From NCBI RefSeq assembly GCF_014062315.1, contig NZ_JACGLT010000001.1, forward strand, positions 186,001 through 250,000: a stretch of 64,000 nt of DNA. The letters run 5' to 3'. The notes under the pieces were generated by a model. The model saw only the letters and a program-made list of their open reading frames with translations. It did not search any database and was not told the DNA's origin. This DNA is from Gelidibacter maritimus. Lineage in GTDB: Bacteria > Bacteroidota > Bacteroidia > Flavobacteriales > Flavobacteriaceae. Below are positions 24,503-29,351 of this stretch, one piece after another (the stretch's first letter is position 1; every line of letters begins with the position of its first letter). A program made the translations under genes and the position numbers.

Positions 24503-24591
24503 CAAGTCATTAGCGAATTTATTCGTTGAAATGCGTTTTATGTTTTATTTATAAATTGTAATTTAGCTTGCTTGCTAATGAAATTTATGTA

Positions 24592-25122
24592 ATGAATATA
24601 AAATGCATTTTTTTTTTGATGTCCTTTTTTGTGTTTCTTGTAGCGCATTCCCAAAAGAGTGTTTTTGAAGTAGCACGTTCTGGTTCAGTTAATGAGATAA
24701 AGGCTTTAATGGCTATTAATGCGGATACAATCAATGCGGTTGAAGATTCAGGATATTTACCTTTAACCTTAGCCTGTTACAATGGAAATAATGAGGTTGC
24801 CTTGTTTTTGGTAAATCATGTCAAGGATATTAATGGCAATAGTAAGATGGGGACACCATTAATGGCTGCAGTTTATAAGAATGATGAGCTTGTCGTGCAA
24901 GCCTTGTTGGCTATGAATGTCAATCCAAATATTGCGGATGCTAATGGCACAACGGCCCTACATTATGCTATTATGAGCAGAAATGAAGCTATTGTCAAGT
25001 TATTGATTGATGCCAATGCTGATGTCGCTTTTACGGATAAACGAGGGAACTCTGCTTTAGACTATGGCAAAATGACCCAAAATCAAAACATTATTAATCT
25101 ATTGAAAAAGAATAAAATATGA
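24592..25122 (+). CDS. Secreted ankyrin-repeat protein
   Basis: 176 aa from the ATG at 24592 (the frame opens at a TTG 8 codons earlier). The signal peptide MNIKCIFFLMSFFVFLVAHSQ is followed by four to five ankyrin repeats with typical phrases: GYLPLTLACYNGNNEVALFL, GTPLMAAVYKNDELVVQALL, GTTALHYAIMSRNEAIVKLL, GNSALDYGKMTQNQNIINLL. It probably works as a periplasmic binding or scaffold protein; bacterial catalase-linked ankyrin proteins (AnkB) are one known precedent but no catalase gene is near. Its stop overlaps the next gene by 4 bp (ATGA), so the two are coupled. Confidence 0.85.
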   Translation: MNIKCIFFLMSFFVFLVAHSQKSVFEVARSGSVNEIKALMAINADTINAVEDSGYLPLTLACYNGNNEVALFLVNHVKDINGNSKMGTPLMAAVYKNDELVVQALLAMNVNPNIADANGTTALHYAIMSRNEAIVKLLIDANADVAFTDKRGNSALDYGKMTQNQNIINLLKKNKI

Positions 25123-25898
25123 AAAAAACTACTTTGGCCTTTTTGGGCATTTTATTAACCTCATTTTGTTTGGCTCAAACTTATACTACTGGAACCATGG
25201 AACTTTACAATCAAAATGATGATGTTTTTACCGCCAGAGTAGATGTTACAAGTACTTTGGTAACCTTAACCTTAGTTGGTCCTGACAATAGTTATTTAGG
25301 GTTTGGTTTTGGAACTCAAACAATGGGGTCTGGTGGCGATGTTGTGCTTTTTTATGATGATGTTGACACTCCGGCCGAAGATTTTCAGTTGTCTGATAGA
25401 AAATTCATTGGAACAGGACCGGTGCCAGAAGTTGATACGCATCAAGATTGGACCTTAGTATCAAATACTCTTGAAAATGGTCAGCGTACTGTGGTAGGGA
25501 CGAGAGTTTTAGATACAGGACATGATGACGATTATGTGTTTTCGACCTCAGATAGTTCATTGGATTTTGCTTGGGCAATAGGTAGTAGCTATGAACTTAA
25601 ACGTCACAGTGCAAGGGGTGGCTCTATGCAATCTTTCACCCTGAGTCAAGATACGTTCACTTTGAGTGATTTTGTCATGACTCCTAATCCTGGACTTTCT
25701 AAATTTGAGTTGCGACTTCCTTCTGGGGTTAGCAATGTAAAACTTCAAGTCTATGATGTGTTGGGGAAGAATATCTTTTCTAAAATATTGACTACACTTT
25801 CAACGACGGTTGATGTTTCAAAATGGAATAGCGGCGTGTATTTGGTAAGAGTAACGTCCAACAATGGTTCGCAAACCAAACGTTTTGTAAAACAATAA
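25119..25898 (+). CDS. DOMON-domain protein with T9SS type A sorting signal
   Basis: 259 aa. The signal peptide (MKKTTLAFLGILLTSFCLAQ) is followed by a ~150-residue beta-sandwich with the DOMON phrase YLGFGFGTQTMGSGGDVVLF; DOMON domains bind haem or sugar. The last ~75 residues (TPNPGLSKFELRLP..., VYDVLGKNIF, GVYLVRV, KRFVKQ) are a Por secretion/T9SS type A sorting domain, so the protein goes to the cell surface or outside. Haem-ligand Met/His placement was not proven. Co-translated with the ankyrin protein and followed by a terminator. Confidence 0.8.
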   Translation: MKKTTLAFLGILLTSFCLAQTYTTGTMELYNQNDDVFTARVDVTSTLVTLTLVGPDNSYLGFGFGTQTMGSGGDVVLFYDDVDTPAEDFQLSDRKFIGTGPVPEVDTHQDWTLVSNTLENGQRTVVGTRVLDTGHDDDYVFSTSDSSLDFAWAIGSSYELKRHSARGGSMQSFTLSQDTFTLSDFVMTPNPGLSKFELRLPSGVSNVKLQVYDVLGKNIFSKILTTLSTTVDVSKWNSGVYLVRVTSNNGSQTKRFVKQ

Positions 25899-25921: not shown

Positions 25922-25951
25922 ACCATCAACTCTAACGTTGATGGTTTTTTT
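25922..25951 (+). terminator. Terminator after the ankyrin/DOMON pair
   Basis: Perfect 9-bp stem ACCATCAAC / GTTGATGGT with a 6-nt loop and a T-run. Confidence 0.85.
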
Positions 25952-26663
25952 ATGAAATCAAAGGAACACTCACCAAGTAAAGCAGTCCAACTAATATGGC
26001 AATTCCAAAACTGATCAGGGTTCCAATTAAAATGTATTCCGTCAACTTACGCTCTTTTGATTCTCTAAGATCTCCAAACCTAAATACTGATTTTGCCGTG
26101 ATCAAAAATCCCACAGCTTCCCAATGATCTAAGATTACAAATACAAATACTAAGACACGCTCCAAGATTCCGATATACTTTCCTGCATCCTTGAGCGATT
26201 CGTTACCTTCAACTATTTTTGAAATGTTCCATTTTAAAAAGATGGTCTTCATAATGATGGAAACTGGAATGGTTAAGAATAGCACACAAGTTAGAAGTAG
26301 GAGGGTTTGATCTGTTAGTAGATGCTTTACACTTGGATCTGAGGCGATAAATAGCCAATAGACCAACAAAATAACCAGAAGGTGTAGAAACTGATCTATA
26401 AAAAATAGAAGTCGTTTTGTTTTTTTGGTTTGAAACTTCAGTTTTAAGATATCAATAGCAAGATGTGATACCCCGATGATTACTATTATTGGCCATTTTG
26501 AAATATCCCAAAGGATTACGAACAATAGAACAATATGAATCAGAACATGCAGATATAACTTTGGTGATCTCAATATTTTCTTTTCCTTTTCCTTGACCCA
26601 TGAATAGGGCTGAAGAAAAAAATCACCAATGAGATGCGCGAGAATGAGCTTTATGAGTATCAT
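25950..26663 (-). CDS. DUF3307 polytopic membrane protein
   Basis: 237 aa with about six or seven hydrophobic segments. Polar residues recur inside or next to helices: HLIGDFFLQ (His10, Asp14, Gln18), HVLIH (His39, His43), SHLAID (His67, Asp71) and IDQFLH (Asp90, Gln91, His94). This is the DUF3307 pattern and recalls membrane metal-dependent hydrolase families (DUF457/YdjM-like), so a metal-binding membrane enzyme is possible but unproven. The ATG overlaps the SatD stop by 4 bp (ATGA), so the two proteins are made in a coupled way. SatD-DUF3307 pairing recurs in other genomes (known association, function unknown). Confidence 0.75.
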   Translation of the reverse strand: MILIKLILAHLIGDFFLQPYSWVKEKEKKILRSPKLYLHVLIHIVLLFVILWDISKWPIIVIIGVSHLAIDILKLKFQTKKTKRLLFFIDQFLHLLVILLVYWLFIASDPSVKHLLTDQTLLLLTCVLFLTIPVSIIMKTIFLKWNISKIVEGNESLKDAGKYIGILERVLVFVFVILDHWEAVGFLITAKSVFRFGDLRESKERKLTEYILIGTLISFGIAILVGLLYLVSVPLIS

Positions 26664-27277
26664 GCCTTTAACGGTATTATTTTATAACGGTAATGCTGTT
26701 CCAACTGCATAATGAGTTCCAAATGGGCGCGTTTTTGTCTGCTGCTCACTGCATTTTGATTGATGCCTATAAGTTTGCCAAGTTCTTCCTGTAAGGCATT
26801 TGGTTGTTCTATATGTAATTTTACAATTTCTGCCGAGTTGGTGGTCCATTGATCCATAATGGTCAAAGCCAGTTTGAAGTAGAGATTGAGATCTTGATTC
26901 AATGGTGCATTTCTGGTTTTGATCTTGAGGTTGACTTTTTCTTTTTTTAAATTTTCTAAAGTGTCACCCGAAAATTGGAACGCCTCTCCGTTAGATTCTA
27001 CGATGGTCTGACCAGTAAATGATTTCTCGCCAATCCCTATGGCAATGCGTACGTCGAGACCTTTAATGGTTTTTATGCAAGCTTTAATATATAGAGCAGC
27101 TTTTAAACTTTCGGTAATATTTTCCAACTCCAATTGGAAGCTGTCGCCTCTATAGATTTCCCATTGAGACTTATTTTGCGTGCATGCACCTAATGCTTCC
27201 TTTAAGGTGGTAAGCCATATCTCAGGGTTTTTGATAGATCGTGATTTGATGATGTCTCCGGTTAATACACTCGTCAT
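26660..27277 (-). CDS. SatD family protein with cyclase-like motif order and C-terminal HTH
   Basis: 205 aa cytoplasmic protein. The N-terminus VLTGDIIKSR (Asp8), the hairpin IYRGDSFQLEL (44-46 GDS), the strand DVRIAIGIGE (75-84) and GEAFQFSGDTLENL (97-110) occur in the same order as the metal-binding Asp, GGDEF/GDxx hairpin, vrvGIhtG strand and GpxvNxAaRL helix of class III cyclases and GGDEF enzymes. The last ~60 residues contain a helix-turn-helix (LGKLIGINQNAVSSRQKRA, 166-184). SatD is known from the Streptococcus mutans sat locus; its biochemistry is unknown to me. A nucleotide-sensing regulator acting on its own promoter is my inference. Confidence 0.7.
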   Translation of the reverse strand: MTSVLTGDIIKSRSIKNPEIWLTTLKEALGACTQNKSQWEIYRGDSFQLELENITESLKAALYIKACIKTIKGLDVRIAIGIGEKSFTGQTIVESNGEAFQFSGDTLENLKKEKVNLKIKTRNAPLNQDLNLYFKLALTIMDQWTTNSAEIVKLHIEQPNALQEELGKLIGINQNAVSSRQKRAHLELIMQLEQHYRYKIIPLKA

Positions 27278-27313
27278 GTAACTACATTATTAATTTAAAT
27301 ATCACTTCATAAA

Positions 27314-27333
27314 ATGATAACACATATTATCAT
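27314..27333. promoter_or_regulatory. Operator-like perfect inverted repeat downstream of the satD promoter
   Basis: ATGATAA, 6 bp, TTATCAT: a perfect 7-bp inverted repeat located in the satD leader, ~40 bp before its ATG. No T-run follows, so a terminator is unlikely. Confidence 0.55.
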
Positions 27334-27354
27334 GTATTTAGCGGATAAATTAGA

Positions 27355-27376
27355 TTATCATTTTATTAGATGATAT
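27355..27376. promoter_or_regulatory. Second operator-like site overlapping the satD transcription start
   Basis: TTATCAT, 8 bp, ATGATAT: 6 of 7 symmetric positions, using the same half-site as 27314-27333 but in the opposite relative arrangement. It directly follows the -7 box and would cover the start point. Confidence 0.45.
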
Positions 27377-27377
27377 T

Positions 27378-27409
27378 CAAATGTATCACTTATTAACGAG
27401 ATAAACAAG
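27378..27409 (-). promoter_or_regulatory. Promoter of satD-DUF3307
   Basis: On the minus strand CTTG (27406-27409), 20 bp, TACATTTG (27378-27385), a perfect -7 with a 3/4 -33. It overlaps the end of the thioesterase gene spacer. Confidence 0.5.
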
Positions 27410-27964
27410 TTACGGAATAGCGACTTTTACCTTATATCCTTCTAAAATATGTAAATAATCATTTGGTGAAAAGTTTTTTTCCTTAAATTCTTTCTGTCTC
27501 ATGCGTTTCATGTCGTTTCGCTTGAGGCATTTTAAAAACCGTCTGACTTCTTGTTTGTCGTTAATGATTAATCCTGGAACCTCAACAGAGTTTCCGTCAG
27601 CATCTTTGGCAACCATTGTAAAGTATGAAGAGTTGCAGTGTTTTATTTCACCGGTTCTAATATTTTCAGCTTCCACACGAATGCCGACCACCATGGACGT
27701 ATTGCCCACATAATTGATAGATGCTTTCATGGTCACCAACTCGCCAATTTCAATCGGATTTAAGAAATCGACCGTATCTACAGAAGCCGTAACACAATAG
27801 GTTTTTGAGTGTTTTGAAGCGCAGGCAAAAGCAATCTGGTCCATTAAATTTAAAATATAACCGCCGTGAATTTTTCCATTAAAATTGGAATTTGATGGAA
27901 GCATCAATTCAGAAATTAAAATTCTTGAATCATCTATTTTTTTAAACTTAGTTTTGTCTTTCAT
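27410..27964 (-). CDS. Acyl-CoA thioesterase (hotdog fold)
   Basis: 184 aa from the ATG at 27964 (a longer frame starts at 27985 and would overlap rmuC by 20 bp). The hotdog domain has GKIHGGYILNLMDQIAFACA, the H-G-G...D motif of YciA/ACOT-type thioesterases that hydrolyse acyl-CoA. The C-terminal ~40 residues are basic (RFLKCLKRNDMKRMRQKEFK), as in flavobacterial members. Only one base separates this start from the rmuC stop, so the two are probably one transcript, although the functions do not obviously connect. Confidence 0.85.
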   Translation of the reverse strand: MKDKTKFKKIDDSRILISELMLPSNSNFNGKIHGGYILNLMDQIAFACASKHSKTYCVTASVDTVDFLNPIEIGELVTMKASINYVGNTSMVVGIRVEAENIRTGEIKHCNSSYFTMVAKDADGNSVEVPGLIINDKQEVRRFLKCLKRNDMKRMRQKEFKEKNFSPNDYLHILEGYKVKVAIP

Positions 27965-27965
27965 A

Positions 27966-29351
27966 CTATTCGTCGTCATTGGCACGTTTTAAAAGTTTTT
28001 CGTTTTGTTGTTTACTGGCTTTGGCACCTAGTGTTTTCAGAGTTTCTACACGTTTGATTAAATTGCCTTTCCCAGTTAATTTAATCATCGCACTGTCATA
28101 AGATTTTTGGACGGTTCCTATTTGATTACCCACTTTAATCAATTCATCGGTTAAGTTTACAAAAGAATCATATAATCGTCCTGCTTGCGTGGCAATTTCG
28201 ATAGCATTTGCCTTTTGTTTTTCGTTTTGCCACATACTATCAATGGTTTTTAAAACGGCAAGTAGGGTAGTGGGGGTAACGATGATAATATTCTTATCAA
28301 AGGCATCGTTGTACAAAGCTGGATATTCCATAGAGGCGATGGCAAAAGCAGATTCAATAGGAATGAACAACAGTACAAAGTCCGGGCTTTCCATATCGTA
28401 AAGTTGGTGGTAGTTTTTTTCTCCCAATTCACTCACTCGTTTTCTAATCGAAATTAAATGGTTTTTTAAATGTGAAGCACGTTCTGTTTCGTCAACATCA
28501 TTGATATATCTTTCGTAAGCGACCAAAGACACTTTAGAGTCAATAATCATTTTCTTGTCCCCTGGTAAAGAAATGACCACATCTGGCAAGACACGTTTAC
28601 CTTCTTCTGTGGTAAAACTTTGCTGTACAAAATATTCGCTGTCTTTTTGAAGTCCACTGCGTTCCAGAACACGCTCCAAGACCAATTCGCCCCAATTTCC
28701 TTGCATTTTAGTATCACCTTTCAAAGCTTTGGTCAAATTAGTAGTCTCTTTGCTCATTTGCTCGTTAAGCTCTTTTAAACCGATGATCTGGCGACGCAAA
28801 TCGGCGCTTCTGGTAATATCTTCCTTGTTGGTTTCTTCCACGCGTTTTTCAAAGTGCTGAATTTTTTCGTGTAAAGGTTTTAAGATGGCGTTTATATTCT
28901 CCTTATTTTGTGTAGTAAATTTGGTCGATTTTTCATCAAGGATTTTATTGGCTAAATTCTCAAACTCTAAAGTGAATTTCTCCTGCAACTTTTCTACTTC
29001 GGCTTTTTGTTCTTGATGTTTTGTAAAGAGATTTTCGAAATCAGCATTTTTCCGCGTCAATTCAGTGTTTAAAAAATCCTTTTCATTGCGGATAAACTCT
29101 CGATCTTTTTCAATTTTGGCTAAAGAGTCATTAAGCGAACTTATTTGAGCTGCATTATTCTGTTCCATTTTTTCAATCTCCAGATCATATTGTGCTCTTG
29201 AATTATGAAGTAGCTGTTGAAGATTTAAAATGCGTTCTTCAAGTGTACTTTGTTCGCTCTTATTTTTAAGTTTGGTAATAGTGATGCCAATATAGGCACC
29301 AATTACGCCAGAGACAAGAATGGATATAATAAGGATAATGCTGTCGTTCAT
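27966..29351 (-). CDS. rmuC: DNA recombination protein RmuC
   Basis: 461 aa. An N-terminal transmembrane helix (IILIISILVSGVIGAYIGI) is followed by a long coiled coil (~30-210), then the RmuC nuclease-like domain with QGNWGELVLERVLERSGL, PDVVISLPGDKKMIIDSKVS and YERYINDVDE. In E. coli RmuC limits inversions between short repeats. The conserved DSK (IIDSKVS) matches a PD-(D/E)xK-type active site. It leads a two-gene unit with the thioesterase. Confidence 0.92.
   Translation of the reverse strand: MNDSIILIISILVSGVIGAYIGITITKLKNKSEQSTLEERILNLQQLLHNSRAQYDLEIEKMEQNNAAQISSLNDSLAKIEKDREFIRNEKDFLNTELTRKNADFENLFTKHQEQKAEVEKLQEKFTLEFENLANKILDEKSTKFTTQNKENINAILKPLHEKIQHFEKRVEETNKEDITRSADLRRQIIGLKELNEQMSKETTNLTKALKGDTKMQGNWGELVLERVLERSGLQKDSEYFVQQSFTTEEGKRVLPDVVISLPGDKKMIIDSKVSLVAYERYINDVDETERASHLKNHLISIRKRVSELGEKNYHQLYDMESPDFVLLFIPIESAFAIASMEYPALYNDAFDKNIIIVTPTTLLAVLKTIDSMWQNEKQKANAIEIATQAGRLYDSFVNLTDELIKVGNQIGTVQKSYDSAMIKLTGKGNLIKRVETLKTLGAKASKQQNEKLLKRANDDE

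Follow-up and report, generated by a model that had tools for sequence, protein, structure and literature searches.

What might two adjoining genes do, when neither belongs to a family with a described function? The window (the whole stretch of 64,000 nucleotides considered in this study) contains such a pair, satD and the gene for a DUF3307 membrane protein, whose families (PF16264 and PF11750, respectively) carry no function in their descriptions. The original prediction, made from the letters of the DNA, saw in the pair a nucleotide- or metal-sensing switch that acts on a membrane metalloenzyme and on its own promoter. Both open reading frames proved to lie where they had been placed, with a four-base overlap (ATGA), and the motifs named in SatD are present as well: Asp8, GDS (residues 44-46, following Arg43), RIAIGIG (77-83), and GEAFQFSGDTLENL (97-110). 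The analysis described below leads to a related view, that the two genes probably constitute a self-contained, mobile and autoregulated switch, in which a metal- or nucleotide-binding repressor controls the membrane protein. Two families without a function would thereby gain a mechanism open to test. The parts of the locus are as follows.

25950..26663, minus strand: gene for the DUF3307 membrane protein (237 aa), overlapping satD by ATGA; found 3' of SatD in 166 of 169 distinct cases
25953..26291, minus strand: C-terminal part of DUF3307 (AG..IG..ER, AKS..RF, TEY..GT.SF), found in the SatD-linked form
26307..26663, minus strand: residues 1-119, the core of DUF3307, whose helices carry near-invariant His/Asp/Gln
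26660..27277, minus strand: satD (205 aa), a palm plus a C-terminal helix-turn-helix (HTH); 157 distinct relatives
26666..26842, minus strand: HTH region of SatD, residues 146-204; predicted helices, weak profile matches (E 0.055 or weaker)
26726..26758, minus strand: recognition helix of SatD, residues 174-184, of which 175, 176 and 179 covary with the operator triplet
26912..27277, minus strand: palm domain of SatD, residues 1-122, like those of class III cyclases and GGDEF domains
27137..27151, minus strand: R43-G44-D45-S46-F47, counterpart of the GGDEF hairpin and aligned with the GGDEF of DosC; Asp45 is a putative metal ligand (155/157)
27254..27256, minus strand: codon of Asp8, at the end of strand 1, a putative metal ligand (155/157), aligned with the strand-1 Asp of Ma1120
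27300..27403, no strand assigned: operator ladder of eight half-sites TATCxx in alternating orientation, exactly 14 bp from start to start
27378..27385, minus strand: -7 promoter box TACATTTG, flanked by two half-sites, in the same phase at other loci
27406..27408, minus strand: TTG, a possible -33 box, 23 bp ahead of the -7 box (23-24 bp being the commonest spacing in relatives)

Convergent with the operon (24568-25898) are genes for a DOMON-like protein with a Por secretion C-terminal sorting domain (25119-25898) and an ankyrin-repeat protein (24568-25122). To the 5' side of satD and on the same strand is a gene of the acyl-CoA thioesterase family (4HBT, 27410-27985), and the gap between it and satD is mostly occupied by the ladder.

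Fold and conserved residues of SatD

SatD is predicted with confidence to fold as a palm (pLDDT 94), and a fold search ranks class III cyclases and GGDEF domains highest, the two groups that the order of its motifs had called to mind. Structure prediction and fold search had been set beforehand as the test of that resemblance. Palms of this class bear one Asp after strand 1 and another in a hairpin, and SatD has both. Conservation was assessed over 171 fetched loci, which include three plasmid loci and some places fetched twice, and which yield 157 distinct SatDs. Asp8 and Asp45 are each kept in 155 of them, Gly44, Gly97 and Gly104 in 156, Gly83 in all 157, and Gln48 in 151; an alignment of 11 SatDs from plasmids, phage and the window has as invariant elements D, S, RGD, Q, D-x-R, A, and G. 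Such conservation is not a matter of chance. The motifs had been expected to hold across homologues, and Asp8, GD and GxA do so. Less conserved are Ser46 (127/157, with Glu in 18), Glu98 (76), Gln101 (70), and Asp105 (7).

By sequence the tie to cyclases is weak. PDB profile matches have E-values from 0.013 to 0.23, and hhalign gave a probability of 15.6% (P 0.0017) against a set of 30 cyclase rows, one of which was empty and six frame-ambiguous or without the usual motifs, rising to 52% (P 0.00014) against the 23 rows left by a filter for two cyclase motifs. The membership of SatD in its own family is itself marginal: it scores 25.5 bits against PF16264 (E 1.2e-5), where the cut-off is 29, a value passed in 7 of 20 genomes of close relatives.

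SatD shares with the class III cyclase domains of Ma1120 and Rv1900c the palm and the order of strand-1 Asp, GD hairpin and RIxIG strand, but differs from them in being short, in having an attached HTH, in apparently lacking conserved counterparts of the ring-closing Asn and Arg, and in giving no match to PF00211 up to an E-value of 1. The GG[D/E]EF signature is absent from SatD, which has RGDSF in its place (RGDEF in some relatives); Ser most often stands in place of the second acidic residue of DosC. GTP cyclohydrolase III (2qv6), also among the closest known proteins, is a larger chain not known to carry an HTH. CdaR/PucR-type regulators join a degenerate GGDEF-like domain to an HTH; SatD, for its part, keeps both Asp and has a fixed partner gene. 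Signalling through c-di-GMP was considered and set aside as an unlikely context, since GGDEF domains were found in 1 of 119 sampled genomes of the class and are absent from the genome of the window. Class III cyclases are common in samples of the class Bacteroidia (47 of 80 genomes, with up to 15 matches per genome).

The operator ladder and the residues that likely read it

The region upstream of satD may be described by a model in which half-sites TATxyz alternate in orientation every 14 bp, giving a period of 28-29 bp. By this model the ladder beats all 40 simulated controls in 131 of the 157 loci; the same strict test found no ladder in the other 26. The signal is also apparent when the half-site is not given in advance. 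The lag of best self-match is 28 or 29 in 65 of 71 distinct upstream regions, with a value below 0.01 against 200 dinucleotide shuffles in 58 of the 71, and a search for six-letter half-sites without the TAT prefix, which gave a bonus to repeats of 28/29 bp, arrived at a distance of 14 in 50 of the 100 regions that produced a call. Exact convergent pairs of half-sites are 14 bp apart in 142 of 154 cases. Divergent pairs (n = 124) are spaced at 14 bp in 73 and at 15 bp in 36; the choice of the triplet had admitted steps of 13 to 15. With a helical repeat of 10.5 bp, a step of 14 bp rotates successive half-sites by about 120 degrees, which as a matter of geometry only would suit a protein chain wound along the DNA. 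One upstream region (L085) has twelve half-sites in a single unbroken ladder, 11 of them TATCGT.

Within the 4.7-Mb genome of the window, the exact pattern TATCA-N10-TGATA-N8-TATCA occurs twice, both times at satD. With at most one mismatch there are 10 matches, 6 of them at satD, and none for a reversed control pattern. A wider regulon was looked for in this genome and rejected, as the TATCA pattern gave elsewhere just four single matches, each with one mismatch.

The ladder coincides with the promoter. A box TAnnTTTG, the -7 consensus of Bacteroidota promoters, is found in 81 of 130 upstream regions (mean of 16.8 and maximum of 30 after shuffling), mostly at one phase, where its TA is the end of a half-site, and a TTG is most often present 23-24 bp to the 5' side. 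Half-sites, if occupied, would cover the satD promoter. An operator over its own promoter is what one looks for in an autoregulatory HTH protein, and ladder and promoter box together provide it at the level of sequence. As for the protein, the predicted HTH appears in the model of SatD as three C-terminal helices of suitable appearance (residues 146-157, 163-170, and 174-184), with weak matches by sequence to HTH regulators.

The triplet xyz varies by lineage. The 130 loci examined (the 131 with ladders less one below the minimum score) have AAG in 25, TAG in 22, TCC in 14, CAC in 11, CTG in 8, CGT in 7, CGG in 7, CAT in 6, TAC in 6, and others in the remainder. For the window a strict chain of half-sites gives CAG, an artefact of exact matching, and the lattice reading gives CAT/CAC; the row was kept in the statistics of mutual information and prediction.

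Of the 205 positions of SatD, residue 179 has the highest mutual information with the triplet, residue 175 the second highest, and residue 176 the seventh. The positions that rank between 175 and 176 (193, 147, 162, and 105) lie outside the helix, and their ranks are as expected from relatedness. Relatedness was taken into account by comparing pairs of loci (which are not independent of one another) at matched N-terminal identity. At 60-70% identity, the triplet is shared in 76 of 145 pairs that agree at 175, 176 and 179, and in 0 of 50 pairs that agree at none of the three; at 20-30% identity the figures are 11 of 30 and 5 of 331. The helix predicts the triplet in 64% of cases, as compared to 46% for the nearest N-terminal relative and 35-38% for control positions in the HTH region. 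When neighbours with at least 60% identity are left out, the corresponding values are 40%, 21%, and 10-22%, and with neighbours below 40% only, they are 15%, 8%, and 4-14%, a small margin.

Individual residues go with individual letters. Glu179 is accompanied by C as the first letter of the triplet in 18 of 18 loci, as is Asn175 in 23 of 24, while Lys179 is accompanied by C as the last letter in 24 of 27, and Gln or His at 179 by G in 45 of 48. All 14 TCC loci have Lys179, with Asp or Glu at residue 175 in 11 of them and Asn in another (L013); the distant TCC loci L108 and L131 have Asp at 176. By eye, 6 of the 130 arrays have clearly mixed triplets (L011, L014, L015, L023, L051, and L054, with L014 and L015 from one genus). 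Their start-proximal sites match the present helix, and their distal sites have the triplet of another lineage. Many further arrays mix similar triplets, such as TAG and AAG.

Since the triplet covaries with residues 175, 176 and 179 beyond what relatedness accounts for, SatD almost certainly reads it, and the protein very probably controls its own promoter through the ladder of sites. The suggestion of action on its own promoter thereby receives support far beyond what was first claimed.

The ladder, which the original prediction had passed over, and the recognition code are new. In the literature searched, I found neither the fold, the operator, the code nor the mobile contexts of SatD and DUF3307; no paper joined SatD with cyclase, helix-turn-helix and GGDEF, and none bore on the idea of the operator. 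Papers that mention these proteins place SatD in M1UK proteomes (PMC10210942) and in the annotation of F. nucleatum (PMC10326533) and call it a DNA-binding protein in S. suis (PMC12005413); one names DUF3307, in a table of phage genes.

Distribution of the pair and the DUF3307 protein

Of 149 genomes sampled from the window's family, 87 gave a SatD in a protein search. Across the class its distribution is patchy, a profile search having found it in 28 of 198 genomes. A scan of contigs gave 46 loci, mostly in Flavobacteriaceae, with Gelidibacter closest. The linkage to DUF3307 is near-constant. All of the 157 distinct cases except L099, L104, and L156 have a DUF3307 gene 3' of satD and in the same orientation (the match is partial in L103 and L028), and it follows in 12 of 12 further distinct SatDs from plasmids and viruses. 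The total of 166 in 169 distinct cases, across two phyla, bears out the co-occurrence that the original prediction gave as known. One of the exceptions, L104 (G220:C2:291681-292298), is the second SatD of its genome, with the helix SPQTVSK, no DUF3307 downstream, and no ladder detected.

Counted by Pfam, DUF3307 occurs in 38 of 198 genomes of the class (the same sample as for SatD, as far as listed), namely 25 of the 28 with SatD and 13 others. A family profile detects it in two of the remaining three SatD genomes, that of L097 and, in part, that of L103. Seven of the 13 copies without SatD are short (open frame of at most 150 aa), and those linked to SatD have a second conserved half. A conserved third partner, which the original prediction had proposed to seek, did not emerge: apart from the pair itself, no gene family among those listed is common to two divergent groups of loci (25 and 21). 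Within one group of Flavobacteriaceae, the pair sits amid genes that are conserved around it in 24-25 of 25 loci.

The membership of the DUF3307 protein in PF11750 is clear (98.9 bits, cut-off 23). The polar residues said to be placed in its helices are indeed there and near-invariant. Among 150 full-length rows, each of H10, D14, Q18, H39, H67, D71, K74, D90, Q91, and H94 is present in 149-150, and five short copies without SatD have all ten except Q18 and K74. These His, Asp and Gln residues suggest a metal site in the membrane. The predicted structure is less sure than that of SatD (pLDDT 84.9, pTM 0.74). It matched no known fold among PDB structures, and among a set of viral structures it had four matches with a probability of at least 0.99, three named DUF3307 and the fourth nameless. 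A relationship to the YdjM hydrolases (PF04307) was tried and gained no significant support. The HxxxD and F-x-ID motifs can be aligned, but not significantly (hhalign probabilities of 1.2 and 0.7, P 0.042 and 0.079), the YdjM profile having been built from the 12 of 25 fetched loci that carry an RG[FI]TH motif.

Plasmids bearing the pair come from Pseudoalteromonas, Vibrio, Sphingomonas, Pseudomonas, Enterobacter, Klebsiella, E. coli, and Segatella. One of them is the mobilizable plasmid pEC34A (L241; NC_019077.1, 1-3770; 3,770 bp), which has Rop, MobA, one small unnamed ORF, and SatD-DUF3307 as its main cargo. Five further 3,770-bp records from Klebsiella have the same DUF3307 (100% over the aligned part), and the complete E. 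coli genomes searched gave no match to the cassette. Named phage records had no match with the window's DUF3307 or with the SatDs of Pseudoalteromonas and pEC34A, but viral contigs do carry the pair: between a D5-type primase and an integrase on a satellite-like element (L240), 3' of lambda-type O and P replication genes (L239), directly after umuDC-like genes on a contig with tail-tip and ParA genes (L249), about 5.5 kb from a lysozyme (L251), and about 3 kb before a terminase (L252).

When the half-sites are left free, 10 of the 13 regions upstream of these mobile copies have a best alternating array that repeats every 28 or 29 bp and outscores six controls, the exceptions being L116, L248, and L251. 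The excess is narrow in L241 and L249, and in another run L241 scored 2.6 against a control maximum of 4.6, so that its ladder is doubtful. L243 gives no signal with the annotated start, whereas placing the start 34 codons downstream brings out one of 29 bp. The plasmid and phage copies show the period with other half-sites, and in several of them (L244, L247 and L249) it is this period that recurs, not the even 14-bp step.

What the pair may do

The reading I favor takes SatD to be a one-component autoregulator. Its HTH would bind the half-sites that line the satD promoter at 14-bp intervals, alternately head-to-head and tail-to-tail, presumably to repress, activation also being possible. Cyclases close the ring with an Asn/Arg pair, and since the palm of SatD keeps the two metal-ligand Asp but apparently no conserved counterpart of that pair, its most likely ligand is a metal-nucleotide, which it perhaps converts by some other route. 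The state of the ligand may alter how SatD molecules line up on the ladder. Upon release, the translationally coupled DUF3307 protein would be made, and its near-invariant His, Asp and Gln point to an enzymatic or pore-like effector with a metal site. The abundance of lineage-specific half-sites would follow from SatD having in effect a single target, so that operator and helix can drift together. The ladders supply about 130 natural pairings of an HTH with the operator it probably reads, alike in geometry and diverse in specificity, and some arrays, seemingly caught midway between two specificities, offer a rare chance to read a protein-DNA code from evolution.

It is possible, but in my judgment doubtful, that the pair is instead a housekeeping regulator which responds to acid or envelope stress, its membrane protein being a lipid or metal enzyme and its mobile copies incidental. 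Such a regulator would accord with the frequency of SatD in the family and with the association of the sat genes of S. mutans with acid tolerance, as related in PMC11323703. However, the ladder is found at no second place in the window's genome, the drift of the operator by lineage fits a regulator with a single target, and the presence of SatD in only 28 of 198 genomes of the class is patchy.

Less probable again is an enzymatically active SatD, a nucleotide cyclase or a synthase of cyclic dinucleotides, with a product that acts directly on DUF3307 as membrane effector, leaving to the HTH only the tuning of expression. Pycsar and Panoptes-like systems, where a nucleotide product acts directly on a membrane effector, provide the precedent, and several observations are in keeping with it: the palm has both metal Asp, a membrane protein is the strict companion, the pair occurs in phage contigs, on small plasmids and in a satellite-like element, and one copy adjoins a Pycsar set (Sphingomonas plasmid L116). 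Against it, no conserved Asn/Arg pair is apparent. Aligned by eye over the 157 SatDs, position 101 has Q in 70, I in 30 and V in 29, and position 105 has E in 69 and R in 53, and hhalign leaves the GDTVNTASR stretch of cyclases unaligned with SatD. Canonical cyclase catalysis is unlikely. Moreover, no PADLOC model fits (2023 release, 0 matches for 4 proteins), no nucleotide-binding domain is recognized in DUF3307, and the HTH and the ladder are the most evident functional parts. An addiction pair akin to toxin-antitoxin systems, with unrepressed DUF3307 as the harmful element and SatD as antidote by repression and perhaps by contact, is equally hard to credit, for even though the genes overlap, appear autoregulated and are the main cargo of a 3.77-kb plasmid, and even though the satD of S. 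pyogenes, with or without a DUF3307 neighbor, is reported as essential yet accessory (178 of 249 genomes; PMC11323703), the conserved surroundings in one group of Flavobacteriaceae would be unusual for addiction.

To return to the autoregulated switch, the fact that phage contigs, a satellite-like element and very small plasmids carry the pair suggests that it takes part in conflict between genetic elements. A tentative extension, improbable as it stands, would make the pair an uncatalogued mobile module of defence or addiction, in which the palm senses the state of nucleotides during phage takeover, SatD forms a filament on the 14-bp ladder, its release leads to a membrane metalloprotein effector, and the drifting code stops cross-regulation between resident and incoming copies. 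Pycsar (the cyclase PycC with PycTM) is alike in having a cyclase-fold protein beside a membrane protein on mobile DNA, but the present pair is without a match to PycTM or PF00211 and has in addition the HTH and the operator ladder. On the Sphingomonas plasmid (L116, 1947-9437) the two kinds of system are neighbors, the pair adjoining a Pycsar set (PycTM and a class III cyclase domain); on the opposite side of the pair, some genes off, a TIR protein is encoded.
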